Of a DNA stretch of 51,065 nt, positions 15,582 through 43,311 are shown one piece after another. Numbering within the stretch: the stretch's first letter is position 1; every line of letters starts with the position of its first letter. The notes beneath the pieces were generated by a model, which was not told the DNA's origin, made no database searches, and saw nothing but the letters and a program-made list of their open reading frames with translations. The position numbers and the translations under genes are program-made. Source of the stretch: Lachnospiraceae bacterium (GTDB lineage: Bacteria; Bacillota; Clostridia; Lachnospirales; Lachnospiraceae); the NCBI GenBank assembly GCA_017612555.1, contig JAGAFR010000063.1, forward strand, positions 1-51,065, written 5' to 3'.

Positions 15582-16450
15582 GATTTGTTGTTGTCACCGG
15601 CCTGTCCGGAGCCGGAAAGAGTTCAGCACTGCGATTTTTGGAGGATGCGGGATACTACTGCGTTGACAATCTTCCGGTACAGCTGATCACTGAATTTGCA
15701 AAACTGCTGAAGGAAAACGGAGAGATCGAGCGTGCCGCTCTTGGCATCGATGTCAGGACGGGAGCGGGTTTTGACGAACTGGAGTCGTCTTTGGCGAGCC
15801 TTAAGGAAATGGGCATTGATTATGAAATACTGTTTCTTGAGTCTGATGATCTCGTGCTCGTCAAGAGATACAAGGAAACCAGAAGGGTTCACCCGCTTGC
15901 TTTCGGAGACAGGATCGAAGCCGGTATAGAAAGAGAACGTAAGAAACTGTCAAATATCAAGAAGCATTCGTCGCACATCCTTGATACGTCCCGGATGCTC
16001 ACAAGAGAGCTGAAGGCTGAGATCGATAAGATCTTTGTAAATGACAGGAAACATAAGAACCTTTACGTTACGATACTGTCATTCGGATTCAAATACGGGA
16101 TACCCGTGGACGCGGATCTTGTATTTGATGTAAGATTTCTTCCCAACCCGTATTATCATGACGATCTTCGTCCTCTGACCGGAAAGGATAAGGCGGTTTC
16201 GGACTATGTTCTCGGATTTGAAGAGGCCGGTGTGTTTCTCGATAAGCTCGAAGATCTTCTTCTGTTCCTTATACCGAATTATATTTCAGAAGGAAAGAAT
16301 CAGCTTGTAGTTGCGATCGGATGTACCGGCGGAAAGCACAGAAGCGTCACCCTTGCCGAGGCCGTATACGGCAGGATGTCAAAGAATGATGAATACGGAT
16401 CGAAACTTGAGCACAGAGATATAGACAAAGACAGAGCACGGGGAAAATAG
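15578..16450 (+). CDS. rapZ: RapZ/YvcJ nucleotide-binding protein
   Basis: The 290-residue P-loop protein of the RapZ (UPF0042) family has Walker A GLSGAGKSS at residues 7-15 and the conserved C-terminal CTGGKHRSV. In Proteobacteria RapZ is the RNase adaptor controlling GlmS; the Firmicute YvcJ is a nucleotide-binding protein with a less clear role. It starts on the ATGA overlap with murB and is followed 1 base later by whiA. Many Firmicutes have yvcK between rapZ and whiA, but it is absent here. Confidence 0.95.
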   Translation: MRFVVVTGLSGAGKSSALRFLEDAGYYCVDNLPVQLITEFAKLLKENGEIERAALGIDVRTGAGFDELESSLASLKEMGIDYEILFLESDDLVLVKRYKETRRVHPLAFGDRIEAGIERERKKLSNIKKHSSHILDTSRMLTRELKAEIDKIFVNDRKHKNLYVTILSFGFKYGIPVDADLVFDVRFLPNPYYHDDLRPLTGKDKAVSDYVLGFEEAGVFLDKLEDLLLFLIPNYISEGKNQLVVAIGCTGGKHRSVTLAEAVYGRMSKNDEYGSKLEHRDIDKDRARGK

Positions 16451-16451
16451 G

Positions 16452-17360
16452 ATGTCTTTTTCCGGAAAGATAAAAGAAGAACTGGTAAGAACGGTAACGC
16501 TTCCGAGGCATTGTCAGCTTGCCGAGATGGCTGCCATTTATGATTTTTGCGGTAAAAAATCGGAAGAGTCGGATGAAAAAATGGTCATTTCTTCCGAAAA
16601 TGAACTGGCGGTCAGAAAGTTCTTTACTTTGCTGACAAAAACATTTAATATGAATACGGCTTTTAAGGCTAACACAAAGGGATACGACAAATGGGGCGCA
16701 AATTACCATTTGGAGATCACAGGAAGTGATACGGTCGACAGTATCAGGTCGGCGATCAGAGTCACGACTGAGACGATGCGATCCTGTTGCAGACGTGCAT
16801 ACATAAGAGGTGCGTTCCTTGCCGCAGGTTCCGTAAGCGACCCGGAAAAGTCATATCATTTGGAGATCGTGTGCCAGGATGAAAGACAGGCACTTTTTTT
16901 GGCGGGATTGCTCTTAAGCTTCGAGATAGAAGCCAAGACGATAACCCGCAAGAAGTATTTTGTCCTGTACGTTAAGGACGGGACGAGTATTGTTGAAACG
17001 CTTAATGTCATGGGGGCGCATGTGGCCCTTATGGATTTTGAGAATACCAGGATACTCAAAGAGATGCGCAATACCGTGAACCGGAAGGTCAACTGCGAGA
17101 CAGCGAACATCGGTAAGACGGTAATGGCAGCGCAGAGACAGATAGATGATATCAGGTTTCTCATGGAGTGTGATTCTTACGATGAGTTGCCTTCGTCCCT
17201 TAAGGAGATGGCGGAACTTAGAATATCATATCCGGAAGCAACGCTTGCGGAACTCGGACAAATGAGCACACCACCGCTTGGCAAATCGGGAGTCAACCAC
17301 AGACTTCGCAAGTTGTCTCAGGCAGCCCGCAGCTATGGGTTCGATGTGTCAGGTTCATAA
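16452..17360 (+). CDS. whiA: DNA-binding protein WhiA
   Basis: The 302-residue protein has an N-terminal LAGLIDADG-like fold (YIRGAFLAAGSVSDP) and a C-terminal WhiA helix-turn-helix (PEATLAELGQ, PPLGKSGVNHRLRKL). WhiA controls sporulation in Actinobacteria and affects division and chromosome segregation in Firmicutes. The rapZ-whiA-crh order is the usual Firmicute arrangement. Confidence 0.96.
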   Translation: MSFSGKIKEELVRTVTLPRHCQLAEMAAIYDFCGKKSEESDEKMVISSENELAVRKFFTLLTKTFNMNTAFKANTKGYDKWGANYHLEITGSDTVDSIRSAIRVTTETMRSCCRRAYIRGAFLAAGSVSDPEKSYHLEIVCQDERQALFLAGLLLSFEIEAKTITRKKYFVLYVKDGTSIVETLNVMGAHVALMDFENTRILKEMRNTVNRKVNCETANIGKTVMAAQRQIDDIRFLMECDSYDELPSSLKEMAELRISYPEATLAELGQMSTPPLGKSGVNHRLRKLSQAARSYGFDVSGS

Positions 17361-17371
17361 GGAGGAGAATT

Positions 17372-17626
17372 ATGACAAAAAAAGAAACGGTCATCCGTCT
17401 CGAGAACGGATTGGAGGCAAGGCCGATCGCACTGCTCGTGCAGGTTGCCAGCCAATATGACAGTTCGGTATACATCGAGTACGGGGACAAGAGAGTAAAT
17501 GCCAAGTCGATCATGGGAATGATGACCCTCGTTCTGGTAGCGGGAGATACCGTTACGGTCACCGCGGACGGTTCGGATGAGGAAACAGCGGTAGATGCGA
17601 TCGTCACTTATCTGTCAGGAGAATAA
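17372..17626 (+). CDS. Crh-like HPr paralogue with Glu at position 15
   Basis: The 84-residue HPr-fold protein has the motif GLEARPIA where HPr has GLHARPA, so the phosphotransfer His15 is replaced by Glu15 and it cannot carry phosphate in the PTS. Ser46 with its context (KSIMGMM) is intact, so HPr kinase could phosphorylate it. These are the features of Crh, which has Gln15 in Bacillus. It lies after whiA in the hprK-led gene group, as crh does in Bacillus. Its likely role is as a regulatory co-effector, for example of CcpA. Confidence 0.88.
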   Translation: MTKKETVIRLENGLEARPIALLVQVASQYDSSVYIEYGDKRVNAKSIMGMMTLVLVAGDTVTVTADGSDEETAVDAIVTYLSGE

Positions 17627-17643
17627 GCCCATAAAAAGGGAGG

Positions 17644-17676
17644 ATGCCAAGTAGCAAAGCTACTTGGCATTTATTA
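17644..17676 (+). terminator. Terminator-like hairpin after the Crh-like gene
   Basis: ATGCCAAGTAG (17644-17654) and CTACTTGGCAT (17660-17670) form an 11-bp stem, followed by TTATTA rather than a full T run. It ends the hprK-crh operon. Confidence 0.75.
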
Positions 17677-17779
17677 TGAAAAAGTATTTGCAATGTAATT
17701 ACTTGTCTTTCTTGTGTTCAGTATAGTTCACATAAATGTATAAAAAATGTTCCTTAAATGAAAAGTTTTTAAACTAAAT

Positions 17780-17800
17780 ATGAACAAAACATGAACAAAA
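17780..17800 (+). promoter_or_regulatory. Direct repeat ATGAACAAA with 11-bp period, site 1
   Basis: Two copies of ATGAACAAA start at 17780 and 17791, one helical turn apart. They lie 16 bases upstream of the -35 box of the heptose operon. This arrangement resembles binding sites of OmpR/PhoB-type regulators. Three copies with the same period occur at 28831. Confidence 0.5.
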
Positions 17801-17816
17801 GCGCCTCAGACGGTTT

Positions 17817-17845
17817 TTGACCAAAAGCGAATATGATGATAAAAT
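17817..17845 (+). promoter_or_regulatory. Promoter of the degenerate-GGDEF/heptose operon
   Basis: TTGACC and TAAAAT have a 17-base spacer. It lies 45 bases upstream of ATG 17891. No other convincing promoter was seen before the transaldolase gene, so the following genes are likely one transcription unit. Confidence 0.75.
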
Positions 17846-17890
17846 ATACAGGTGTTTTGCACACGATCGGAGAGGATTTCGGAGAAGATT

Positions 17891-18772
17891 ATGGAAGAGG
17901 GAAAGACTAAAGTTAAAAAAACCGGTGACGGAAAGCTTGTTTCATTTATAGGGCTGGGACTTATGCTGATCGCATTTGTTCTTGCCGTGGCAGTCACAAA
18001 TTCCGCGGGTTCTGATTATTTTGCGGAGAACATTGCCATGACGATAGCTATGGCTGCGGCGGTGATCATTGCTGCGGCAGGATATCTGACGATAGCGATA
18101 GTGGTTGCTGCTGTTGCTACGGTCATTTTCGCAGGACTCAAAGTTTATTCGATCCTGTCGCTTCAAATGACTTTCCCCTTGATGTCTTTTTTGTGGATAG
18201 TTCTTCCGGCTATGTGTGTTGTTGGTATAGCACTGTATGTTAAGAGGTATTCGCCCCTTACTCTTGAGAACGCACTTTTAAAAAAGCAGATCGCGGAACT
18301 GTCTATGATAGATCCGGTAACGGGACTGTACAATCTGCGAAGCATGTTCATGGATATACAGACGCAGATATCCTATGCAGAGCGAAATAACAGCCCGATA
18401 TCCCTTATGATACTGAGGCTCCGTTATCCTGCGGAGATGAGGAAAGTCCTGAAGTCATCGCAGTATGAGAAGGTGATCAAACAGCTGTCGCTTCTTATCG
18501 TCGATACCGTCCGTCTGGAGGACAGGGTATACTCGATCGATGAGAACGGCGGATTCGGAATAATACTTACATGCGACAAAGAAGGTACCAAGCTTGTCGA
18601 AGGCAGACTTCGCAACAAGCTTGCCGATTCATCATGGTTTGAGGGCATTTCCGACAAACAGATCCGTACCGAGGTAAAGATCGGATACCTGCAGTATGAC
18701 AACACGAAATACAACCGTGATGCAAACACCTTCAGGGATGATGTGGAAGACGAAGTTACGTATGACATGTAG
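17891..18772 (+). CDS. Membrane protein with degenerate GGDEF domain (possible c-di-GMP receptor)
   Basis: The 293-residue protein has four predicted membrane helices (about 17-36, 47-65, 67-84, 97-117), a short linker helix and a GGDEF-type domain from about residue 134, opening with the family motif DPVTGLYNLRSMF. The metal-binding Asp motif is gone (LRLRYPAEM) and the GGDEF loop reads ENGGF, so it should not make c-di-GMP. An RxxD motif (RLED) remains at the position of the inhibitory I-site, where PelD-type receptors bind c-di-GMP. ATG 17891 behind GGAGAAG is chosen over an upstream in-frame GTG. It lies 13 bases before the heptose genes. The receptor function is inferred. Confidence 0.75.
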   Translation: MEEGKTKVKKTGDGKLVSFIGLGLMLIAFVLAVAVTNSAGSDYFAENIAMTIAMAAAVIIAAAGYLTIAIVVAAVATVIFAGLKVYSILSLQMTFPLMSFLWIVLPAMCVVGIALYVKRYSPLTLENALLKKQIAELSMIDPVTGLYNLRSMFMDIQTQISYAERNNSPISLMILRLRYPAEMRKVLKSSQYEKVIKQLSLLIVDTVRLEDRVYSIDENGGFGIILTCDKEGTKLVEGRLRNKLADSSWFEGISDKQIRTEVKIGYLQYDNTKYNRDANTFRDDVEDEVTYDM

Positions 18773-18785
18773 ATAGGAGTGCAAT

Positions 18786-19745
18786 ATGAAATATTTTATC
18801 ACCGGCGGAGCAGGCTTCATCGGCTCCAACATGGCCGACAGACTTCTGGCAGAGCCGGAAAACGAGGTCGTTGTTTACGACAATTTTTCAACAGGAAGAA
18901 GGGAATTCCTTGAGCAGGCGCTGAAGAATGGCAGATTCAGGCTTGTTGAAGGCGATACACTTGACCTTCCCGCACTTACGGATGCGATGAAGGGCTGTGA
19001 GATGGTATTCCATTTTGCTGCAAATGCCGATGTCAGGATGGGAACAAGCCATCCGCGCAAGGATCTGGAGCAGAACACGATAGCAACATACAACGTGCTC
19101 GAGGCTATGAGAGCAAACGGCATCAAGAGGATTGGTTTTTCATCAACCGGTTCCGTATACGGGGAAGCCGAGGTAATTCCGACGCCGGAAAATGCTCCGT
19201 TCCCGATCCAGACCTCTTTGTACGGCGCATCAAAGCTTGCGTGCGAAGGACTCCTTGCAGCATATGCGGAAGGGTTCGGTTTTACCGCTTATATATTCAG
19301 ATTTGTATCTATACTGGGAGAGCGTTACACACACGGTCACGTGTTTGATTTTTGCAGGAAGCTTTCTGACGACCCGACAAAACTTCATATACTCGGAGAC
19401 GGGCATCAGAAGAAATCATATCTGTACGTCAAAGACTGTCTTGAAGCTATACTGACTGTAGTAAAGAATGCAAAAGAAAAAGTGAACATCTACAACCTCG
19501 GAACGGACGAATATGTTGAAGTAAATGATTCCGTAAGGTTCATCTGCGGCAAGCTCGGAGTTTCTCCAACGCTGTCATATGAGGGAGGCGAGCGCGGATG
19601 GATCGGAGACAATCCGTTCATATACCTTGATACGGCAAAGATCAGATCTCTCGGATGGAAGCCGGCAGCTACCATAGAAGAGGGTGTGATAAAGACTGTG
19701 GAATACCTGCAGGCCAATCCGTGGGTATTTGAGTGTAGAGAATAA
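18786..19745 (+). CDS. NAD-dependent nucleotide-sugar epimerase/dehydratase
   Basis: The 319-residue extended short-chain dehydrogenase has a Rossmann motif TGGAGFIGSNM (residues 5-15), a catalytic Ser/Thr in GFSSTGSVYGE and the YxxxK pair in SLYGASK. It resembles UDP-glucose 4-epimerase and related nucleotide-sugar enzymes. Its position at the head of the GDP-heptose genes suggests that it modifies a nucleotide-activated sugar, perhaps the heptose itself. The exact substrate cannot be read from sequence. The ribosome site is AGGAG, 7 bases upstream. Confidence 0.88.
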   Translation: MKYFITGGAGFIGSNMADRLLAEPENEVVVYDNFSTGRREFLEQALKNGRFRLVEGDTLDLPALTDAMKGCEMVFHFAANADVRMGTSHPRKDLEQNTIATYNVLEAMRANGIKRIGFSSTGSVYGEAEVIPTPENAPFPIQTSLYGASKLACEGLLAAYAEGFGFTAYIFRFVSILGERYTHGHVFDFCRKLSDDPTKLHILGDGHQKKSYLYVKDCLEAILTVVKNAKEKVNIYNLGTDEYVEVNDSVRFICGKLGVSPTLSYEGGERGWIGDNPFIYLDTAKIRSLGWKPAATIEEGVIKTVEYLQANPWVFECRE

Positions 19746-19759
19746 TCAGGAGGGGTCAC

Positions 19760-20734
19760 ATGATCATCGCACGAAGTCCGCTTAGGATAACACTCGGGGG
19801 AGGGGGAACCGATCTTCCGTCATATTATGAGGAAAGAGAAGGATTCCTTATCTCGGCGGCAATCGACAAGTACGTATATATAACCCTTCATGAAACATTT
19901 GAAAAGGGCTATTTTCTCAAGTATTCCAAGTTTGAAAAATGCAATGAGATTGAAGAGATACAGCACCCGATAATCCGTGAGGCTCTAAAGCTCCTTGACT
20001 GGAAAAAACCGTGCCTGGAGTTGTGCTCGATGGCAGATATTCCTGCAGGCACAGGGCTCGGATCGTCGAGTTCATTTACCACGGCACTTCTGCGTGCACT
20101 CCATACCATGCAGGGAAATATCGTATCCACCAGGACTCTGGCGGAAGAAGCATGCGAGATAGAGATGAACAGGTTGAAAGAGCCTATCGGGAAGCAGGAT
20201 CAGTATATCGCCAGCTACGGCGGGATCACCTGTATGAACTTTCACAGAGACGGATATGTCTGGGTGGATCCTCTCAGGATATCAGATGAGGCACTGTACA
20301 ATCTGGAAGACAATCTTATCCTATATTTCACGGGCTTCTCGCGTTCTGCCGGAAACATATTAAAAGAGCAGAATGACAAGAGCAAAGAGCACAATGAAGA
20401 AATGCTGAAGAATCTGGACTTTGTCAAAGACCTTGGCTACCAGAGTAAAAATGCATTGGAAAAGGGAGACCTTGATACCTTTGCGGACATAATGAACGTT
20501 CACTGGCAGTACAAGAAGAAACGTTCGGGAGGAATGAGCAACCCGCAGATCGACGAGTGGTACGAACTCGCTCTTGCAAACGGAGCCCAGGGCGGCAAGA
20601 TGATCGGAGCGGGCGGAGGCGGATTCCTGATGTTTTATGTCAAGGATAAGGTTCGTCTTCGTGATGCCATGAGAAATACCGGCATGAGTGAAGTAAGATT
20701 CAGATTCGAAAAGGAAGGATCAAAGGTCTTATGA
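19760..20734 (+). CDS. hddA: D-glycero-alpha-D-manno-heptose-7-phosphate kinase
   Basis: The 324-residue GHMP-superfamily kinase has an N-terminal substrate motif RSPLRITLGGGGTDLPSYY, the ATP-binding PAGTGLGSSSSF (about 95-106) and a C-terminal GGKMIGAGGGGFLMFY. These match HddA, which makes D-glycero-alpha-D-manno-heptose-1,7-bisphosphate in the GDP-heptose route. The ribosome site is AGGAGGGG. The 3' end overlaps the next gene by 4 bases. Confidence 0.9.
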   Translation: MIIARSPLRITLGGGGTDLPSYYEEREGFLISAAIDKYVYITLHETFEKGYFLKYSKFEKCNEIEEIQHPIIREALKLLDWKKPCLELCSMADIPAGTGLGSSSSFTTALLRALHTMQGNIVSTRTLAEEACEIEMNRLKEPIGKQDQYIASYGGITCMNFHRDGYVWVDPLRISDEALYNLEDNLILYFTGFSRSAGNILKEQNDKSKEHNEEMLKNLDFVKDLGYQSKNALEKGDLDTFADIMNVHWQYKKKRSGGMSNPQIDEWYELALANGAQGGKMIGAGGGGFLMFYVKDKVRLRDAMRNTGMSEVRFRFEKEGSKVL

Positions 20735-22038
20735 TAAGTCCCGCAGACGTTATGGTCGTGGTACTTATGGGAGGCCTTGGTACCAGGTTAAAAGAATTTA
20801 CAAAAGAATGCCCGAAATCGCTTGTGGAAGTTTGCGGCAAGCCGTTCTTTGATTATCAGCTCGATCTGCTTACGGCATGGGGATTTAAAAAATTCGTATT
20901 CCTCATAGGATACAAAGCCGATATGATCGAGGATTACTACGGAAACGGCAGCGACAGGGGCATATCAATACAGTACAGCTATGATGGAGAAAAGCTTCTC
21001 GGGACGGGAGGTGCAGTGAGGCGCGCTCTGGATCTTCTTGAGGATGATTTTCTCCTTTTGTATGGGGATTCATTCATGGATATCGATTATGCACAGACGC
21101 TGTACCGGTATCAGAAAGGAAAAGCATCGGGCGCCAGAGCTCTTATGACGGTGCTTCGAAACAATAACCGTTTTGATAAGAGTAATGTCGTGATGAACGG
21201 TAACGATCTGATCCTTTATGACAAGAAGAATCCCACGGCGGAAATGGAATATATCGACTATGGCGTGTGCATGTATGAAAGATCCCTGTTTGAGGGATTT
21301 TCAAAAGATGAAGCATTTGATATCGCCGATATCCAGCACGACCTGTCCGTAAAAGGCCAAATGACGGCTCAGATAGTGACAAAAAGGTTTTACGAGATCG
21401 GGAGCCCCGCCTCGCTTGCCGAATTTACACAGTATGCAAAGCACAGGTTCTGCGAAAGTCATCCGGCGGTGTTTGTTGACAGGGACGGCGTCATCAACAG
21501 CATTGTCTGGAATGATGATACAGAGCAGCTTGACAGTCCGATGAAGGTGGAACAGTTTGAATTCCTTCCGGGCGCTTTAGAGGCGATCAGGACTTTTAAA
21601 GAAAAGGGATACTACGTATTCGTGATCACCAATCAGCCCGGAGCGGCAAAGGGCAAGACGGACCTGGCAACGCTTTACGATATCAACACATACATGATCG
21701 ACAGTCTGTCGCAGAAAGGTGCGGATATAGACGATCTGTTCATGTGTCCGCATTATCCGAAAGAACTTCCTCAGACAAAAGAGAAGTTCCTGATCAGAGA
21801 ATGCGATTGCAGAAAGCCCAAGCCGGGGCTTATATACAGAGCGATGCGCAAATATAACATCGACCTGTCGAAATCCTTTATGATAGGGGATTCGTGTACC
21901 GACATAATTGCAGGAAATACCGTTGGGATTCCAACGATATTCATAGGCGATCTGAAGTGCGATCTATGCAAAAAGCTCGGAGATATAATGCCGACATTCA
22001 TTGCAAAGGATCTTACGGATGCGTCAAACAATGTCTAA
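20731..22038 (+). CDS. Fused heptose-1-phosphate nucleotidyltransferase and heptose bisphosphatase (HddC-GmhB)
   Basis: The 435-residue fusion has an N-terminal nucleotidyltransferase (about 1-230) with LMGGLGTRLKEFTKECPKSL and a DS metal motif (LLYGDSFMDID), as in HddC. The C-terminal part (about 245-425) is a HAD-IIIA phosphatase like GmhB, with FVDRDGVIN, VITNQPGAA, the Cys-His/Cys-x-Cys zinc loop (CPHYP ... ECDCRKPKPG) and GDSCTDI. One polypeptide would therefore remove the 7-phosphate and activate the 1-phosphate with GTP. The genes are separate in most described organisms. Confidence 0.9.
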   Translation: MISPADVMVVVLMGGLGTRLKEFTKECPKSLVEVCGKPFFDYQLDLLTAWGFKKFVFLIGYKADMIEDYYGNGSDRGISIQYSYDGEKLLGTGGAVRRALDLLEDDFLLLYGDSFMDIDYAQTLYRYQKGKASGARALMTVLRNNNRFDKSNVVMNGNDLILYDKKNPTAEMEYIDYGVCMYERSLFEGFSKDEAFDIADIQHDLSVKGQMTAQIVTKRFYEIGSPASLAEFTQYAKHRFCESHPAVFVDRDGVINSIVWNDDTEQLDSPMKVEQFEFLPGALEAIRTFKEKGYYVFVITNQPGAAKGKTDLATLYDINTYMIDSLSQKGADIDDLFMCPHYPKELPQTKEKFLIRECDCRKPKPGLIYRAMRKYNIDLSKSFMIGDSCTDIIAGNTVGIPTIFIGDLKCDLCKKLGDIMPTFIAKDLTDASNNV

Positions 22039-22068
22039 TTGTAGGGAAGGGAAAAGGAGGAAACAATT

Positions 22069-22629
22069 ATGACAGCAGATTACATCAAGCGATACCTGGA
22101 GGAAACCAAGACTATCGCAGACACAGTTTCGCAGGAGGAGATCGAAAAGGGGATCAACATACTTCGCGAGACCAAGAAGAATGAAGGAAGACTGTTTATT
22201 CTCGGTGTCGGCGGAAGTGCGGCAAACGCATCTCACGCAGTCAATGATTTCCGAAAGATCGGCGGGATCGAGACGTATGCACCCACCGATAATGTATCCG
22301 AACTTACAGCCAGGACCAACGACGAAGGCTGGGAGACGACTTTTGCGGAGTGGCTGAAGTGCAGCCATTTGAATGGGAAGGATTCCGTAATGGTGTTCTC
22401 AGTCGGCGGTGGAAGCGAAACAACATCACTTAACATCGTTAATGCATTAAAACTTGCAAAAGAGCGCGGAGCAAAGGTCATATCCATAGTATCGCGAAGC
22501 GGCGGATATTCCAAGCAGGTCAGTGATGCATGCGTGCTCATCCCGGTCATCTGCGACGAGAGGATCACACCCCACGCGGAAGGATGGCAGGGAGTGATAT
22601 GGCACTTGATGGTTAATTCTTTGAATTAA
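22069..22629 (+). CDS. gmhA: Sedoheptulose-7-phosphate isomerase (SIS domain)
   Basis: The 186-residue SIS-domain protein has the phospho-sugar motif GVGGSAANASHAVNDF and the second SIS signature SVGGGSETTSLNIV, as in GmhA. It should convert sedoheptulose-7-phosphate to D-glycero-D-manno-heptose-7-phosphate, the first step of the pathway. ATG 22069 lies behind AGGAGG. The last codons and the stop lie inside the left and right arms of a 19-bp hairpin that begins repeat copy B, so the repeat has shaped the C-terminus (about 6-10 residues). Confidence 0.88.
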   Translation: MTADYIKRYLEETKTIADTVSQEEIEKGINILRETKKNEGRLFILGVGGSAANASHAVNDFRKIGGIETYAPTDNVSELTARTNDEGWETTFAEWLKCSHLNGKDSVMVFSVGGGSETTSLNIVNALKLAKERGAKVISIVSRSGGYSKQVSDACVLIPVICDERITPHAEGWQGVIWHLMVNSLN

Positions 22630-22674
22630 CCATCGAGTGCCAGGCGGAGCGCCGCTTGAGCGGGTACGGTAACT
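22601..22674. repeat. Modular intergenic repeat, copy B
   Basis: A 19-bp hairpin (22601-22619 with 22623-22641, loop TTT, one G-T pair) is followed by AGGCGGAGCG (22642-22651) and CGCTTGAGCGGG-T-ACGGTAACT (22653-22674). It has the same module order as copy A at 10.73 kb but lacks the inner hairpin and the CCCGGCGAGGG segment. It overlaps the end of gmhA and lies between gmhA and the transaldolase gene. Confidence 0.75.
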
Positions 22675-22705
22675 ATATCTAATAGAAAAACAGGAGGGGA
22701 TTTTA

Positions 22706-23425
22706 ATGAACGCAAGTGATCTTACAATTACCATATATGCAGACGGGGCCGACATCGAGGGGATGAAGGCCGAATACAAAAAGGGGATAGTGAAGGGATT
22801 TACGACCAATCCCACACTTATGAAGAAGGCAGGAGTCAAGGACTATGTAACATTCGCGAAGGAATGCGTAAAGGAGATCCCGGATCTGCCGCTTTCATTG
22901 GAAGTGTTCGCGGATGATTTTGACGGAATGGAAGAAGAGGCAAGGATAATATGCGGACTGGGAAAGAACGTGTATGTCAAGATCCCGATAACCAATTCCA
23001 AGGGGGAATCAAGCATACCTCTTATCAGAAAACTGTCTGCCGAGGGACTTCGGCTTAACGTCACAGCGATCCTCACAATGAAACAGGTCGAGGAGACAGT
23101 CGATGCATTTGCAGAAGGTACGGATAACATAGTGTCAATATTTGCCGGAAGGATAATGGATACAGGAGTGGATGCGGTTCCCATGATGAAGAAGGCAAAG
23201 GAGATCGCATCAAAGAAACCCGGAACTCTTACGCTTTGGGCAAGCTGCAGGGAAGTGTACAATATCATACAGGCGCAGGAGAGCGGATGCGACATAATCA
23301 CCGTCACAAACGCCATTCTTGCAAAGCTTCCGAACCTCGGAAAAGACCTTGCACAATTGTCGCTTGAGACGGTACAGATGTTTGTAAACGACGGCAGGAG
23401 CTTGGGTTACAGTATTCGTGCTTGA
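22706..23425 (+). CDS. Transaldolase family protein
   Basis: The 239-residue class-I aldolase has the family opening (GFTTNPTLMKKAG) and the Schiff-base lysine in VYVKIPIT. The size is that of short transaldolases and fructose-6-phosphate aldolases. At the end of the heptose operon it would supply sedoheptulose-7-phosphate, the substrate of GmhA; this is inferred from position. The ribosome site is AGGAGGGG. A strong promoter for the next gene overlaps its stop. Confidence 0.9.
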   Translation: MNASDLTITIYADGADIEGMKAEYKKGIVKGFTTNPTLMKKAGVKDYVTFAKECVKEIPDLPLSLEVFADDFDGMEEEARIICGLGKNVYVKIPITNSKGESSIPLIRKLSAEGLRLNVTAILTMKQVEETVDAFAEGTDNIVSIFAGRIMDTGVDAVPMMKKAKEIASKKPGTLTLWASCREVYNIIQAQESGCDIITVTNAILAKLPNLGKDLAQLSLETVQMFVNDGRSLGYSIRA

Positions 23426-23450
23426 CAAAACCGCATGTTTGCGATATATT
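23422..23450 (+). promoter_or_regulatory. Strong promoter of the Ala/Lys-rich protein gene
   Basis: TTGACA and TATATT are separated by exactly 17 bases, near consensus. The -35 box overlaps the transaldolase stop codon. About 70 bases of leader follow before AAAGGAGA and the ATG. Confidence 0.85.
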
Positions 23451-23528
23451 CTTTGTTGCGTATAAAAAAATTGCTTAATTTTACAGTGTTTTTGATGATA
23501 AAGAGAGCTTGAAAGGAGAATCATTATC

Positions 23529-24170
23529 ATGGCAGACATCAAGAAACCTACAGTAACAGTTAAGAAAACTGTTGTTACTGAGCCTGAGAAGGCAAAGGAA
23601 GTGCTTAAGGCAGCTGTAGCAGAGAAGAAGGCAGCAGCTCCTGTAAAGGCAGCAGAGCCTGCAAAGAAAGCACCTGCTAAGAAAGCACCTGCAAAGAAGG
23701 CAGCAGCAAAGAAAGCACCTGCAAAGAAGGCACCTGCAAAGAAGGCAGCTCCCGCAAAGAAGGCAGCAGCACCTGCAAAGAAGGCAGCTCCCGCAAAGAA
23801 GGCAGCTCCCGCAAAGAAGGCAGCACCTGCAAAGAAGGCAGCTCCCGCTAAGAAGGCAGCTCCCGTTAAGAAGGCAGCTCCTGCTAAGAAGGTTGCAGCT
23901 AAGAAGGCACCTGCTAAGAGGAAAGCAGCTAAGAAGACAGTTCTTAAGACAAGTGCAGTATTCGCTATCAGCGACAGCAAGAACGTTTCAGCTGAGGCAC
24001 TGTTCAAGCAGTACTATAAGACTGCAAAGGATCGTGCAAGATATGATCTTGGCATGAAGGTTTCAGAGATCAAGACCATCGATCTGTACCTCAACATTGC
24101 AGAGCAGAAGGTATACAGTGTCATCAACGGTGAGAAGAACGATTCATTTGATATGTATTTTGAATTCTGA
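23529..24170 (+). CDS. Histone-H1-like Ala/Lys/Pro-repeat protein with C-terminal DUF6465-like domain
   Basis: The 213-residue protein has a strongly basic N-terminal two-thirds (about 30-140) made of repeated AAPAKK/APAKKA units, as in eukaryotic H1 tails and bacterial AlgP or Hc proteins. A compact C-terminal domain of about 75 residues (KTSAVFAISDSKNVSAEALF ... SFDMYFEF) resembles the DUF6465 family seen in Lachnospiraceae; the family name is from memory. Codon use is narrow, and the near-consensus promoter and good terminator indicate high expression. Non-specific DNA or RNA binding is likely from the charge. The specific role is unknown. Confidence 0.85.
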   Translation: MADIKKPTVTVKKTVVTEPEKAKEVLKAAVAEKKAAAPVKAAEPAKKAPAKKAPAKKAAAKKAPAKKAPAKKAAPAKKAAAPAKKAAPAKKAAPAKKAAPAKKAAPAKKAAPVKKAAPAKKVAAKKAPAKRKAAKKTVLKTSAVFAISDSKNVSAEALFKQYYKTAKDRARYDLGMKVSEIKTIDLYLNIAEQKVYSVINGEKNDSFDMYFEF

Positions 24171-24197
24171 TCTGATCACGGAAAATGATAAATGTTC

Positions 24198-24225
24198 AAA
24201 GGGGACTAGTGATAGTCCCCTTTTG
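24198..24225 (+). terminator. Terminator of the Ala/Lys-rich protein gene
   Basis: AAAGGGGACT pairs with AGTCCCCTTT around loop AGTGAT and runs into TTTTG. Confidence 0.88.
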
Positions 24226-24279
24226 ATTCTCCGTTAACGGTAATTGACAGCTTTTTAAACATGGGAAGGAAGAAGAAAA

Positions 24280-26514
24280 ATGATCAAACTTTATGATGAA
24301 GGAGTATTCCTGGTCGATCAGACTGATATCAAAACGGCATCAGAGATGTCGGATCCCGGTGTTTCTGCCGAAGAGGCAAAAAAGAATACGATAGCCTATG
24401 GCATACTGAAGGAGCATAATACTTCGGATGACATGGAAAAGCTCAGGATCAGGTTTGATAAGCTGACCTCCCATGATATCACATATGTAGGTATCATCCA
24501 GACCGCAAGGGCATCGGGACTTGAAAAGTTTCCAATGCCGTATGTACTGACCAACTGCCACAACAGCCTGTGCGCTGTCGGAGGTACGATCAATGAAGAT
24601 GATCACATGTTCGGTCTTACATGTGCCAAAAAATACGGCGGGATCTATGTTCCTCCTCATCAGGCAGTAATACACCAGTTCGCGCGCGAGATGCTCGCCT
24701 GCGGCAAAAAGATGATACTCGGATCGGATTCCCATACAAGATACGGGGCTCTCGGAACAATGGCAATGGGAGAAGGGGGTCCGGAGCTTGTCAAACAGCT
24801 CCTGGGCAGGACATATGATATCCCCCGCCCTGAGGTTGTGGCTGTATATATGAAAGGCAGTCCCAAACCCGGCGTGGGACCTCAGGACGTGGCTCTTGCG
24901 ATAATAGGTGCTGTATTTGAGTGCGGTTACGTTAAGAATAAAGTAATGGAATTTGTAGGCCCCGGAGTATCTTCGCTAAGTGCCGATTTTCGTATCGGAG
25001 TGGATGTAATGACCACGGAAACAGCTTGTCTGTCATCTATATGGAGAACCGATGACGAGATCAGACAGTTCTATGAGATCCACGGTAGAAGTGAAGATTT
25101 CGTTCAGCTCGATCCCGGAAAGGTTGCATATTACGACGGGATGATAGAGGTAGATCTGTCAGAGATCGAACCTATGATCGCGATGCCTTTCCATCCGAGC
25201 AATACATATACGATAAGAGAACTGAACGCAAACCTTGAAGGGATCCTGCGGGATGTGGAAGAAAAAGCCAAGATCTCCCTGGGCGAAGATGTCTCACTAA
25301 AGCTTACCGATAAGATCAGGGACAACAGACTGTACGTTGAGCAGGGTATCGTTGCGGGATGTGCCGGTGGCGGATTTGAGAACATATGTGCCGTTTCCGA
25401 TATTCTTGACGGTAAAGATATAGGATCGGATGAATTCACGCTCAGTGTATATCCGGCATCCATGCCTGTATACATGGAGCTGATCAGAAACGGATGTGCT
25501 GCAAAGCTGCTCCAAACGGGAACGGTATTAAAGACAGCTTTTTGCGGACCGTGCTTCGGAGCCGGAGATACACCGGCAAACAATGCATTCTCAATAAGAC
25601 ACTCAACAAGGAACTTCCCCAACCGTGAAGGCAGCAAGCTTCAGAGCGGGCAGATCTCGTCTGTTGCACTTATGGACGCAAGATCCATTGCAGCTACGGC
25701 AGCCAACAAAGGATATCTGACAAGCGCAACGGATCAGATCGAAGCAGATACACTGAAAAAGTATAAATACAGCTTTGACAGCACGATATATGCAAACAGA
25801 GTGTTTGATTCAAAGGGTATCGCCGACAGCGAACAGCAGATCCATTTCGGACCGAACATCAAAGACTGGCCTTCGATGAAAGCACTTTCCCGGAACCTGT
25901 TGCTCAGAGTCGTTTCCGTGATACATGATCCGGTAACGACAACGGATGAACTGATCCCTTCCGGTGAAACATCATCTTACAGATCCAATCCTCTGGGACT
26001 GGCTGAATTCGCCCTGTCGAGAAAAGACCCGAAATATGTGGAAAGGGCAAAAGAAGTAAGAGACGGAAAACTTCCGGAGATCAAGGATATAATACAGACG
26101 ATAAATGAAAAGTTCCCGGGAACGGATACAACGAACACCGGTATCGGATCCACCATATTTGCCGTTAAGCCCGGTGACGGATCAGCCAGGGAACAGGCTG
26201 CGAGCTGTCAGAAGGTGCTCGGCGGCTGGGCAAATATAGCCAACGAATATGCTACCAAGAGATATCGCAGTAATCTGATCAACTGGGGAATGCTTCCGTT
26301 TTTGATCGATGAGGGAGATCTTCCTTTTGATAACCTCGACTATATCTTCATCCCTGAAATAAGAAGAGCAATAGAAGATAAACTGTCGGATATAGATGCT
26401 TATGTTGTCAAAGACGGCAAGATGACAAAGTTCACTCTCCATATAGCAGCGCTTACCGATGACGAAAGATCGATAATACTGAAGGGATGCCTGATCAATT
26501 ATTACGCATCATAG
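24280..26514 (+). CDS. Aconitase-family hydratase (YbhJ-like)
   Basis: The 744-residue protein of the aconitase superfamily has its general resemblance in length and N-terminal region to E. coli YbhJ, whose function is unknown. Likely [4Fe-4S] ligands are the Cys in VAGCAGGG (about residue 360) and the pair in CGPCFGAGD (about 421-424). The conserved [13 protein letters not shown] segment is also present. It probably hydrates or isomerises a carboxylic acid, but it is not a standard citrate aconitase and the substrate is unknown. The ribosome site is GGGAAGGAAG. The next small gene begins 8 bases after its stop. Confidence 0.85.
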
Positions 26515-42003: not shown

Positions 42004-43311
42004 TTAACAATAACTCGAAAACATCATTCCGCTGTAGTTGCTTGTTACGTACGGGGTTGCAAATCCATGTCCGGGATTCTTGTATGCAACTATTGTCTTC
42101 TGAGTATATTCCATCGGATCAAGAGCCACTTTGTTGGCACGTGCAAGAACTCCCTCGGTAAACTTCTTGATGGGTGCGAACTGATTCATGGCATCATCTT
42201 CACGGGCTGTCTGCGTGAGGAGATTATTGTCAATATTGATCGTTCCGTCCTCAGCAAAGTTAAGACCGATGGATTCGAGTTCAGACGAATACAACTGTGC
42301 AACCTTGTTCATCTCGCGTACGAGCTTCTTCGAGTAAGGCTGCGACTCGGCGTAGGAGTTGATATTATTGATGAATGAGTTGTAACCGTTCACAAGGTTT
42401 GAGATATTCTCCGTGACGGATTCAACGTCTGTCTTAAGACCGATGCTTGCAACGGATCCTTCTTCGCTGACCCCTTTGAGATTGATATCATACATCTTCT
42501 CGATCGAGAAGTGGTTGGAGAAGGTACTGCGCTGTTCCCCGTTCAAAGTAAACAGAGAGTTCTGCGGGTACTCTGTAACATCTCCTATACCGAAATAGTC
42601 AACCGTACCTGCGGTCTTATGCGTATTATTATCGGAAATAATGAAGTTCACGCCTTCAGAGGTCCTTACACCGGTGTCATCGGACTTGATCGAAAGGGCA
42701 ACCCTGCCGTTGTCGTCGGTAAGGACGGAGGCATTGACTCCTATATTGGAACGTGTGATAAGCCTTGACAGCTTTTCTTCCACGATCTTGTTCGTATCGT
42801 TCTCTCCTATATTGAACTGGAATTCGTAGTCCATATCTCTTGCATGGATATCGAATGAATATGTTCCGGGTTCGAGTCCCATCTCATCAGGCTCCAGGAA
42901 CTTACCGCGGTTTTCCTGAACTCCGGCAAGCTGTTCGACAGAGATCTCAAGTGTGGGTATTGAATCGGGATCCAGGTCGGCTCCGCCGATGAACGAAGCC
43001 TGAACAACGTCTTCATCACTGGATGCTACTGCCTTCTGATCGAGGTAGCTGTCCGAATCATCCATCGAAAGAGAAGAGATAACATTCTTAAGAGATCTTG
43101 CATTCTCTTTAAGACCCACTGCAAACTCCTGAGTAGACGGAGAATTGTCAAGCAGGAACAGGGGCGCTTCTTTATTCATCTTAACAATGGAATTATACAG
43201 ACCACGAAGCTCGCTCTTCTTATGGGTATCATACTTGCTGTTGGTACCCGTCGGCGCATACGTGGTCAGGAAATGATTATAGACCGTAGAAATAGTTGTA
43301 TTGTCAGCCAT
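42004..43311 (-). CDS. FliD-like flagellar cap/hook-associated protein
   Basis: The protein has about 435 residues and is the only clear minus-strand gene. The C-terminal third has the FliD signature pattern (VNGYNSFINNINSYAES, LYSSELESIGLNFAEDGTIN), and the middle has the FliD-type domain where the fold GTYSFDIHARDMDYEFQFNI occurs. It is shorter than many FliD proteins, and no other flagellar gene adjoins it. The start at 43311 follows a good AAAGGAGGGG; an in-frame ATG 16 codons upstream is less likely. Orphan FliD-like proteins occur in motile Lachnospiraceae, so it may be a variant cap or a secreted relative. Confidence 0.78.
   Translation of the reverse strand: MADNTTISTVYNHFLTTYAPTGTNSKYDTHKKSELRGLYNSIVKMNKEAPLFLLDNSPSTQEFAVGLKENARSLKNVISSLSMDDSDSYLDQKAVASSDEDVVQASFIGGADLDPDSIPTLEISVEQLAGVQENRGKFLEPDEMGLEPGTYSFDIHARDMDYEFQFNIGENDTNKIVEEKLSRLITRSNIGVNASVLTDDNGRVALSIKSDDTGVRTSEGVNFIISDNNTHKTAGTVDYFGIGDVTEYPQNSLFTLNGEQRSTFSNHFSIEKMYDINLKGVSEEGSVASIGLKTDVESVTENISNLVNGYNSFINNINSYAESQPYSKKLVREMNKVAQLYSSELESIGLNFAEDGTINIDNNLLTQTAREDDAMNQFAPIKKFTEGVLARANKVALDPMEYTQKTIVAYKNPGHGFATPYVTSNYSGMMFSSYC

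Follow-up and report, generated by a model that had tools for sequence, protein, structure and literature searches.

A degenerate GGDEF, putative membrane protein encoded at the head of a predicted heptose-nucleotide operon in Lachnospiraceae, and a candidate route to c-di-GMP-switched surface glycosylation

What is a gene for a putative c-di-GMP receptor doing at the head of an operon whose gene content points to the probable synthesis of an unusual seven-carbon sugar for the cell surface? The operon lies in contig JAGAFR010000063.1 of a Lachnospiraceae bacterium (assembly GCA_017612555.1), the whole 51,065 nt of which were analysed and are referred to here as the window. The closest relatives of this bacterium are from rumen and gut samples. 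Six open reading frames proposed in an initial annotation are present on the forward strand between 17891 and 23425, in the order degenerate GGDEF protein, epimerase, HddA-like kinase, HddC-GmhB fusion, GmhA-like SIS protein and transaldolase, with one promoter in front. The junctions are, in order, 13, 14, -4 (an overlap), 30 and 76 nt. The 76 nt between gmhA and the transaldolase gene are not seamless, as a strong 20-bp hairpin without a T-run (22600-22642, forward strand, z -5.3) spans the gmhA stop codon.

The predicted promoter (17817..17845, forward strand) is of the sigma-70 type, TTGACC-17-TAAAAT, with an extended -10 (TG before the -10). It ranks second among 16 matches, and shuffled sequence gives a mean of 12.0, so the motif match alone is little proof. 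The element TTGACC-17/18-TG-TANAAT is, however, found in all 12 loci compared (the window and 11 relatives, L002-L012, the more distant clade of L013-L015 and L019 being left out), where it starts 59-91 nt upstream of the start codon of the GGDEF gene, and this conservation bears out a single promoter ahead of the six genes. A separate promoter before the epimerase had been named as evidence against the initial proposal; no promoter-like site occurs on the forward strand of the window from 18334 to the epimerase start, and only a weak one (9/12) at 18305, within the GGDEF gene. Scanning of the corresponding gap in relatives covered gaps >60 nt, at four loci. An Rfam scan of positions 16000-25000 returned no riboswitch, and one chance-level mir-553 match under its cut-off, so that control through a known c-di-GMP riboswitch is unsupported.

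The epimerase (18786..19745, forward strand as are all six genes) is a predicted NAD-dependent, GalE-like extended SDR (Pfam Epimerase; best PDB match 3ehe, E 2e-86). It is followed by a GHMP kinase (19760..20734; PDB 4usm, 3k85 and 4n3o) resembling the heptose-7-phosphate kinase HddA, and by a fusion (20731..22038; Pfam NTP_transferase and HAD) of an HddC-like nucleotidyltransferase (residues ∼1-235) with a GmhB-like HAD phosphatase (∼240-435). A divergent GmhA-like isomerase (22069..22629; Pfam SIS) and a transaldolase of the TIGR02134 type (22706..23425; TAL_FSA, 355.3 bits against a cut-off of 281.95) complete the set. All four enzyme types of the GDP-D-glycero-D-manno-heptose pathway, GmhA, HddA, GmhB and HddC, are therefore found together, as the proposed route from sedoheptulose-7-phosphate to GDP-heptose demands, but each of the four falls below its NCBIfam equivalog cut-off (in bits, HddA 188/600, HddC 111/300, GmhA 55/209 and GmhB 140/178). 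The models passed in the operon are TIGR02134, the only equivalog, and two broad HAD domain models. The operon also differs from the known pathway in the fusion of HddC and GmhB, in the added epimerase and transaldolase, and in the receptor-like gene at its head. Inclusion of the transaldolase in the heptose set was upheld, as its gene stays with the cassette in three relocated copies outside the genus (L017, L018 and L113).

The first gene (17891..18772) predicts a 293-aa protein with a strongly hydrophobic N-terminal region (residues 12-119, four overlapping windows by hydrophobicity only; YdaK has 4 TM helices) and a GGDEF domain (Pfam, 38.0 bits; cut-off 23.8). As originally read, the domain is degenerate and retains an RxxD I-site: DENGG replaces the GGDEF motif, RxxD occupies residues 208-211, and Arg239 (R+31) is also present. 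Every one of 48 aligned homologues (35 distinct) has a degenerate motif (DENGG, DSEGS and similar) together with RxxD. R208, D211 and R239 belong to the 19 columns that do not vary over the 35 distinct sequences, and are unchanged even in a homologue of 27-28% identity. The same genome has 33 GGDEF-matching stretches, a sign of much GGDEF signalling. By comparison, of 17 distinct domains with a catalytic motif found in it, 3 have RxxD. The protein thus looks like a membrane sensor of c-di-GMP.

Lack of conserved linkage between this gene and the heptose genes had also been named as a refutation, but the linkage is upheld in 31 genomes of the genus. The next gene 3′ is the epimerase in 28 of them, usually with the whole cassette, and a contig edge intervenes in the other 3, though this is one locus in one genus and represents few independent events. 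The nearest recognised gene on the 5′ side is of five kinds (hpr, GNAT, PPIase, GT2 or YdjC). The pair formed by the GGDEF and epimerase genes is intact where hddA lies elsewhere (G262, G263 and G280), where hddA is missing (G260) and where a different contig carries the hdd genes (G255). Against a strict association, the cassette occurs without the GGDEF gene at L017 and L018 (within ∼21 kb in each case) and in genome G079, and the GGDEF gene occurs without a comparable hddA in G144 (at E 1e-60) and G221.

The genes for assembly of the glycan had been expected to lie elsewhere, and a candidate pair was found in the same genome, a GtrB-like GT2 gene (here GT2b; at G000:C87, downstream of gyrA) with a gene for a YfhO-family GT-C protein (PF09586, 589.7 bits) nearby. 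GT2b matches 5ekp (sll0501), which we take to be GtrB, with E 1.4e-64, and also ArnC-type transferases. In the family it is present in 3 of 250 genomes, and precisely these have hddA at 82% or above; within the genus it is present in 19 of 37 genomes, all 19 with the core hddA. In 11 of those 19 a yfhO gene is at most 340 nt from GT2b, and in another 6 the distance is 1.8-4.2 kb, counts to be read with no background rate. GT2b is not obligatory, as 15 of the 34 genus genomes with the core hddA lack it at E 1e-70, three of these (G274, G277 and G280) being well assembled; so does G079, the one further family genome in which a near hddA (71%) occurs. Paralogous GT2 genes of the same genome (C33, C83, C22 and C24), only 25-36% like the cassette-linked GT2s, were set aside.

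Taken together, these features are consistent with a pathway in which transaldolase would supply sedoheptulose-7-phosphate, and the SIS isomerase, the HddA-like kinase, the GmhB phosphatase domain and the HddC domain would convert it to an NDP-heptose. The GtrB-like GT2 would then transfer the sugar to undecaprenyl phosphate, and YfhO would move heptose outside onto a surface polymer. Binding of c-di-GMP at the RxxD of the degenerate GGDEF protein may switch a glycosyltransferase step at the membrane, in the way proposed for YdaK and YdaMN; relatives in which a GT2 gene abuts or overlaps the GGDEF gene point to such a partner. To this reading as a whole, c-di-GMP-switched surface heptosylation, we give a probability of about one half. 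What it draws from sequence is the gene order, the promoter, the linkage, an I-site kept where the catalytic motif is lost, the neighbourhood of GT2b and YfhO, and the co-occurrence of GT2b with the cassette; from these we infer c-di-GMP binding, the exact sugar, its acceptor and the direction of control. A more far-reaching version is tentative and rather doubtful. In it the receptor, parted from its exopolysaccharide synthase, would have been joined to the supply of nucleotide sugar and its lipid-linked transfer, giving c-di-GMP direct control over whether a wall polymer is heptosylated. Such a switch of surface glycosylation in Gram-positive gut bacteria would differ from the known receptors, which activate a polymerase.

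The analogy first drawn was with PelD, a membrane-bound protein with a degenerate GGDEF domain and RxxD. No Pel genes were noticed in the window, and the closest described relatives are, rather than PelD, the Gram-positive I-site receptors YdaK of Bacillus subtilis (ydaJKLMN) and PssE of Listeria monocytogenes (pssA-E). By description, YdaK is a membrane protein of similar size (its constructs end at residue 283) with a degenerate GGDEF domain and an RxxD I-site (R202/D205, against R208/D211 here). In YdaK, R202 and D205 are required for EPS (PMC5422440), the I-site is required for c-di-GMP binding (PMC7064775), and PssE binds c-di-GMP with a Kd of 0.79 uM (PMC4125290). PssE, needed for exopolysaccharide, is also similar by description: its GGDEF motif is ruined, and RxxD lies five residues ahead of it. 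Its gene comes at the end of a synthase operon, however, and not at the start of a precursor operon. The neighbours of the GGDEF gene in the window are sugar-nucleotide enzymes, and on reading its surroundings no DUF2334, BcsA-like GT2 or BcsB gene was found beside it, unlike in ydaJKLMN. For the assembly step, the nearest parallel is teichoic-acid glycosylation by CsbB/GtcA/YfhO (PMC8035078), which also combines a GtrB-like GT2 with a YfhO-family protein but uses GlcNAc, not the heptose predicted here. Within the partial texts searched on c-di-GMP, degenerate GGDEF, YfhO, heptose, GDP-heptose, Lachnospiraceae and Butyrivibrio, an arrangement of receptor and heptose genes was not seen described, in agreement with the initial annotation, and those on Lachnospiraceae and Butyrivibrio gave no study of a glycan or receptor of this kind. 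The genes of YdaK and PssE are neighbours of the polymer synthase that these proteins switch on, whereas the gene of the GGDEF protein here has stayed beside those of a heptose-nucleotide pathway. If this protein works as a receptor, what c-di-GMP controls in this lineage of the gut and rumen would be a sugar decoration instead of a polymer. The linked GT2 and YfhO genes make the question of the acceptor directly testable.

Other explanations differ from this one over the enzymes, the receptor or the destination of the sugar. The product of the enzymes may be a sugar nucleotide of another kind, such as one derived from a ketose phosphate other than sedoheptulose-7-phosphate, since the HddC domain fits the HddC model (111.4 bits) and the MurU model (110.6 bits) equally well and the GmhA score is low; this appears unlikely given that phosphoheptose isomerases account for all 11 PDB matches of the SIS protein at E 0.001 (the best at 1.8e-9), that the best matches of the HAD domain are heptose bisphosphate phosphatases (GmhB 2gmw, E 6e-27), and that those of the kinase include two annotated heptose kinases. 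It is similarly improbable that RxxD has a structural role and that the GGDEF protein serves the epimerase, or a glycosyltransferase, as a scaffold. The segment RLEDRVY does sit in a block of general conservation, but the invariance of R208, D211 and R239, the rarity of RxxD in the other GGDEF domains seen and a layout matching two proven binders speak for c-di-GMP recognition.

Alternatively, the protein may control an unlinked exopolysaccharide synthase and share only its promoter with the heptose genes, as a relic of an ancestral combined cluster resembling that of G241. Homologues in two other genera (G144 and G241) do lie within ydaKLMN-type exopolysaccharide clusters, with DUF2334-type, GT2 and BcsB genes after the GGDEF gene (confirmed by Pfam and tblastn for G241). 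G144 has these without hddA, and on a 22-kb contig of G241 the cluster continues into GT2-GT2b-epim-hddA-hddC. However, BcsB/YdaN was not found by PF03170 in the window's own genome (90% complete) or in 36 of 37 genus genomes, control genomes giving matches, nor in the own genome with the G241 protein as query, a search without a positive control. A BcsB gene in G268 was rejected as part of a YdaLMN set, as no GGDEF gene of this type adjoins it and its neighbour is a GT2 whose matches to MshEN and DUF4388 are weak and under their cut-offs. The receptor gene thus stays with the heptose genes although BcsB/YdaN was not found, and its adjacency to the epimerase outlasts rearrangement on both sides, so control of such a synthase is not a likely reading. 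Surface heptosylation is also preferred over transfer of the heptose to flagellin or another secreted protein, with c-di-GMP tuning the change between motility and attachment through flagellar glycosylation, which we consider quite unlikely. At L018 an epim-gmhA-tal-hddA-hddC cassette follows genes for a flagellin-domain protein (read as FlgL), FliW, FlaG and FliD, together with a weak match to FlgN, suggesting another use of the sugar there, but this is one distant locus and it lacks the GGDEF gene. The window itself carries a FliD_C-domain gene (42004-43311, reverse strand) 18.6 kb past the operon, with many unrelated genes between them.

The six genes and the promoter claimed in the initial annotation are present in the window, as ORF and promoter checks confirmed, and the anatomy of the operon (genes at 17891-23425, forward strand) is real. 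Pfam and NCBIfam matches are to GGDEF, an NAD-dependent epimerase, a GHMP kinase for which HddA is the top model, a nucleotidyltransferase-HAD phosphatase fusion whose leading models include HddC and GmhB, a SIS isomerase with GmhA as its top model, and a TIGR02134 transaldolase. For each of the four heptose enzymes the top model scores below its curated cut-off, so that 'HddA-like' and equivalent terms are the honest wording. PDB sequence searches concur, returning heptose kinases, heptose bisphosphate phosphatases, phosphoheptose isomerases and transaldolases. The transaldolase motif SIFAGRIMD carries a Phe, as does 1vpx at the aligned place, where fructose-6-phosphate aldolases have Tyr, and this fits a true transaldolase activity that would yield sedoheptulose-7-phosphate. 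Median identities to close relatives (11 for most genes, but 10 for RapZ and the transaldolase and 8 for aconitase) are 90.6% for the epimerase, 95.7% for HddA, 91.4% for the SIS isomerase, 92.3% for the transaldolase, 77.6% for HddC-GmhB and 75.8% for the degenerate GGDEF membrane protein encoded by the first gene (GGDEF*). Those of neighbouring genes are 67.6% (MurB), 76.0% (WhiA), 82.1% (RapZ), 81.2% (aconitase) and 96.4% (HPr); hence four of the five enzymes are more conserved than the neighbours, HPr excepted. The function of the operon is predicted, and its composition appears to be a new arrangement of known parts, a candidate I-site receptor accompanying a sugar-nucleotide operon and not a synthase. 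No description of such a pairing was found in the literature searched, at the level of listings.

All 12 loci compared for the promoter (the window and L002-L012) have TTGACC-17/18-TG-TANAAT starting 59-91 nt upstream of the start codon of GGDEF*, although the upstream gene and DNA vary. The gap between GGDEF* and the epimerase gene measures 13-214 nt across the 11 loci read for it, and a promoter scan of the four gaps >60 nt with their flanks gave a single weak site (9/12, L008), which begins within the GGDEF* gene. A 16-nt overlap replaces the gap in G260 and G280. The gap between gmhA and the transaldolase gene contains a 20-bp hairpin (z -5.3), and expression of the transaldolase could therefore differ in level from the rest of the operon. 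This strong hairpin spans the gmhA stop codon and is followed, within 22600-22672, by GAGCGGGTACGG, a 12-mer also found 3′ of gmhA in L002, L005 and L008. Palindromic repeats occupy several intergenic gaps in relatives; with the hairpin and GAGCGGGTACGG, they perhaps form a REP-like intergenic repeat family. By reading, the GGDEF*-epimerase gap of L004 (7829-8041) is filled by four near-identical tandem palindromic units. Between the operon and the aconitase gene, 23529-24170 encodes a Lys/Ala/Pro-rich protein with AKKAAP repeats, histone-H1-like by reading, and is preceded at 23422 by the highest-ranking promoter match in the region scanned.

Taken as query against a genome collection covering 84,980 species, the HddC-GmhB fusion found 21 loci, with the cassette in 18 (L002-L019, of which 17 carry the title Lachnospiraceae and one that of Bacterium C-53; a single isolate is the source of both L012 and L016). 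GGDEF* accompanies it in 15 of the 18; it was not seen in the 21 kb of either L017 or L018, and L016 starts inside hddC. In the window's genus, GGDEF* is present in 34 of 37 genomes (17/17 good ones) and HddA in 35 (16/17 good ones), 34 being of the core type with at least 78% identity. GGDEF* neighbours were read for 31 of these 34 genomes, through the window, L023, L056-L083 and, for G275, L124; G253, G267, G283 and an additional G273 copy were left out. Linkage, the test set in the initial annotation, held: the epimerase gene directly follows GGDEF* in 28 of the 31, and the other three reach a contig edge at 0, 2 or 363 nt. The nearest recognised gene on the other side is hpr (9), GNAT (7), PPIase (5), GT2 (5, overlapping GGDEF* by 8 nt in L124) or YdjC behind a GT2 (2), with none in reach in 3. 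The pairing persists where hddA lies elsewhere (G262, G263, G280) or is missing (G260), and in G255, where hddA and the other hdd genes are on another contig. The tight unit is therefore GGDEF*-epimerase, with the remaining cassette usually behind. This evidence represents one locus in one genus, and not many independent events.

Every GGDEF* homologue aligned has lost the catalytic motif, and RxxD is kept in all 48 rows (35 distinct), even in the 27-28% identical protein of G221. An Arg at +31 from the first RxxD Arg, corresponding to PleD R390, is invariant as well. Among 17 distinct GGDEF domains of the window's genome with an intact catalytic motif (taken by a fixed-spacing pattern from 30 of 33 matches), only three have RxxD, so its presence in GGDEF* is not mere background. 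By description, GGDEF* shares the layout of YdaK of B. subtilis, which has 4 TM helices and an I-site needed for EPS production and c-di-GMP binding (excerpts of PMC5422440, PMC7064775), and is comparable to the I-site receptor PssE of Listeria, which binds c-di-GMP at 0.79 µM (excerpt of PMC4125290).

Outside the genus, a draw of 250 Lachnospiraceae genomes gave GGDEF* in G144, G221 and G241. The genes after it in both G144 and G241 encode a DUF2334-type protein, a processive-type GT2, BcsB and a UDP-GlcNAc 2-epimerase-type protein (the last assigned in G144 by reading only), an order that matches the ydaKLMN plan. The G241 contig continues to two GT2 genes and epimerase-hddA-hddC, then ends. 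The G221 homologue has neither ydaKLMN-type nor heptose genes beside it. BcsB was found in only 1 of 37 genomes of the window's genus and in none of the 17 good ones, by a search that was positive in its E. coli and B. subtilis controls. The simplest history would be that the synthase was lost and the candidate receptor and heptose genes were retained. In G268 (L121:6913-11359), BcsB adjoins a GT2 whose MshEN match is weak and below the cut-off; this is perhaps another c-di-GMP-dependent polymer synthase.

The second GT2 of the G241 contig, GT2b, is immediately 5′ of the epimerase gene. Its counterpart in the window's genome, 82-83% identical, follows gyrA, with a gene for the GT-C protein YfhO 1.8 kb downstream. 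This GtrB-like gene (L133:4181-5140) is flanked by gyrA and fumarase genes, unusual surroundings for an envelope gene. GT2b matches 5ekp (sll0501, a GtrB; E 1.4e-64) and ArnC-type undecaprenyl-phosphate transferases. In a survey scoring the best 9 candidates in many of the 250 family genomes, GT2b at E 1e-85 occurred in three, the same three with hddA of at least 82% identity; G079, a fourth genome whose hddA is near (71%), lacks it. Within the genus, GT2b is present in 19 of 37 genomes, all with core hddA, and absent from 15 others with core hddA, including the well-assembled G274, G277 and G280. Among the 19, yfhO is 45-340 nt from GT2b in 11 and 1.8-4.2 kb off in 6, and it was not seen nearby in G278 and G250. 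A GtrB-like transferase with YfhO is a known plan by which sugars are added to teichoic acids from outside (excerpt of PMC8035078). Given this plan and the GT2b-YfhO evidence, the odds are about even that GT2b would make Und-P-heptose, with YfhO-type transfer following.

L017 and L113 carry the cassette within what read as glycan clusters, whereas in L018 (29-8166) it adjoins flagellar genes (flagellin-domain protein, FliW, FlaG, FliD), which suggests that flagellin is glycosylated in a different lineage. Acceptors of the same activated heptose may thus differ between genera. A transaldolase gene accompanies the cassette in all three, supporting a place for it in the heptose pathway. In the window, a gene upstream of nusG (42004-43311, reverse strand) encodes a protein with a FliD_C domain (33.7 bits against a cut-off of 25.4), and a similar gene is likewise upstream of nusG in L018 (15033-16343, reverse strand).
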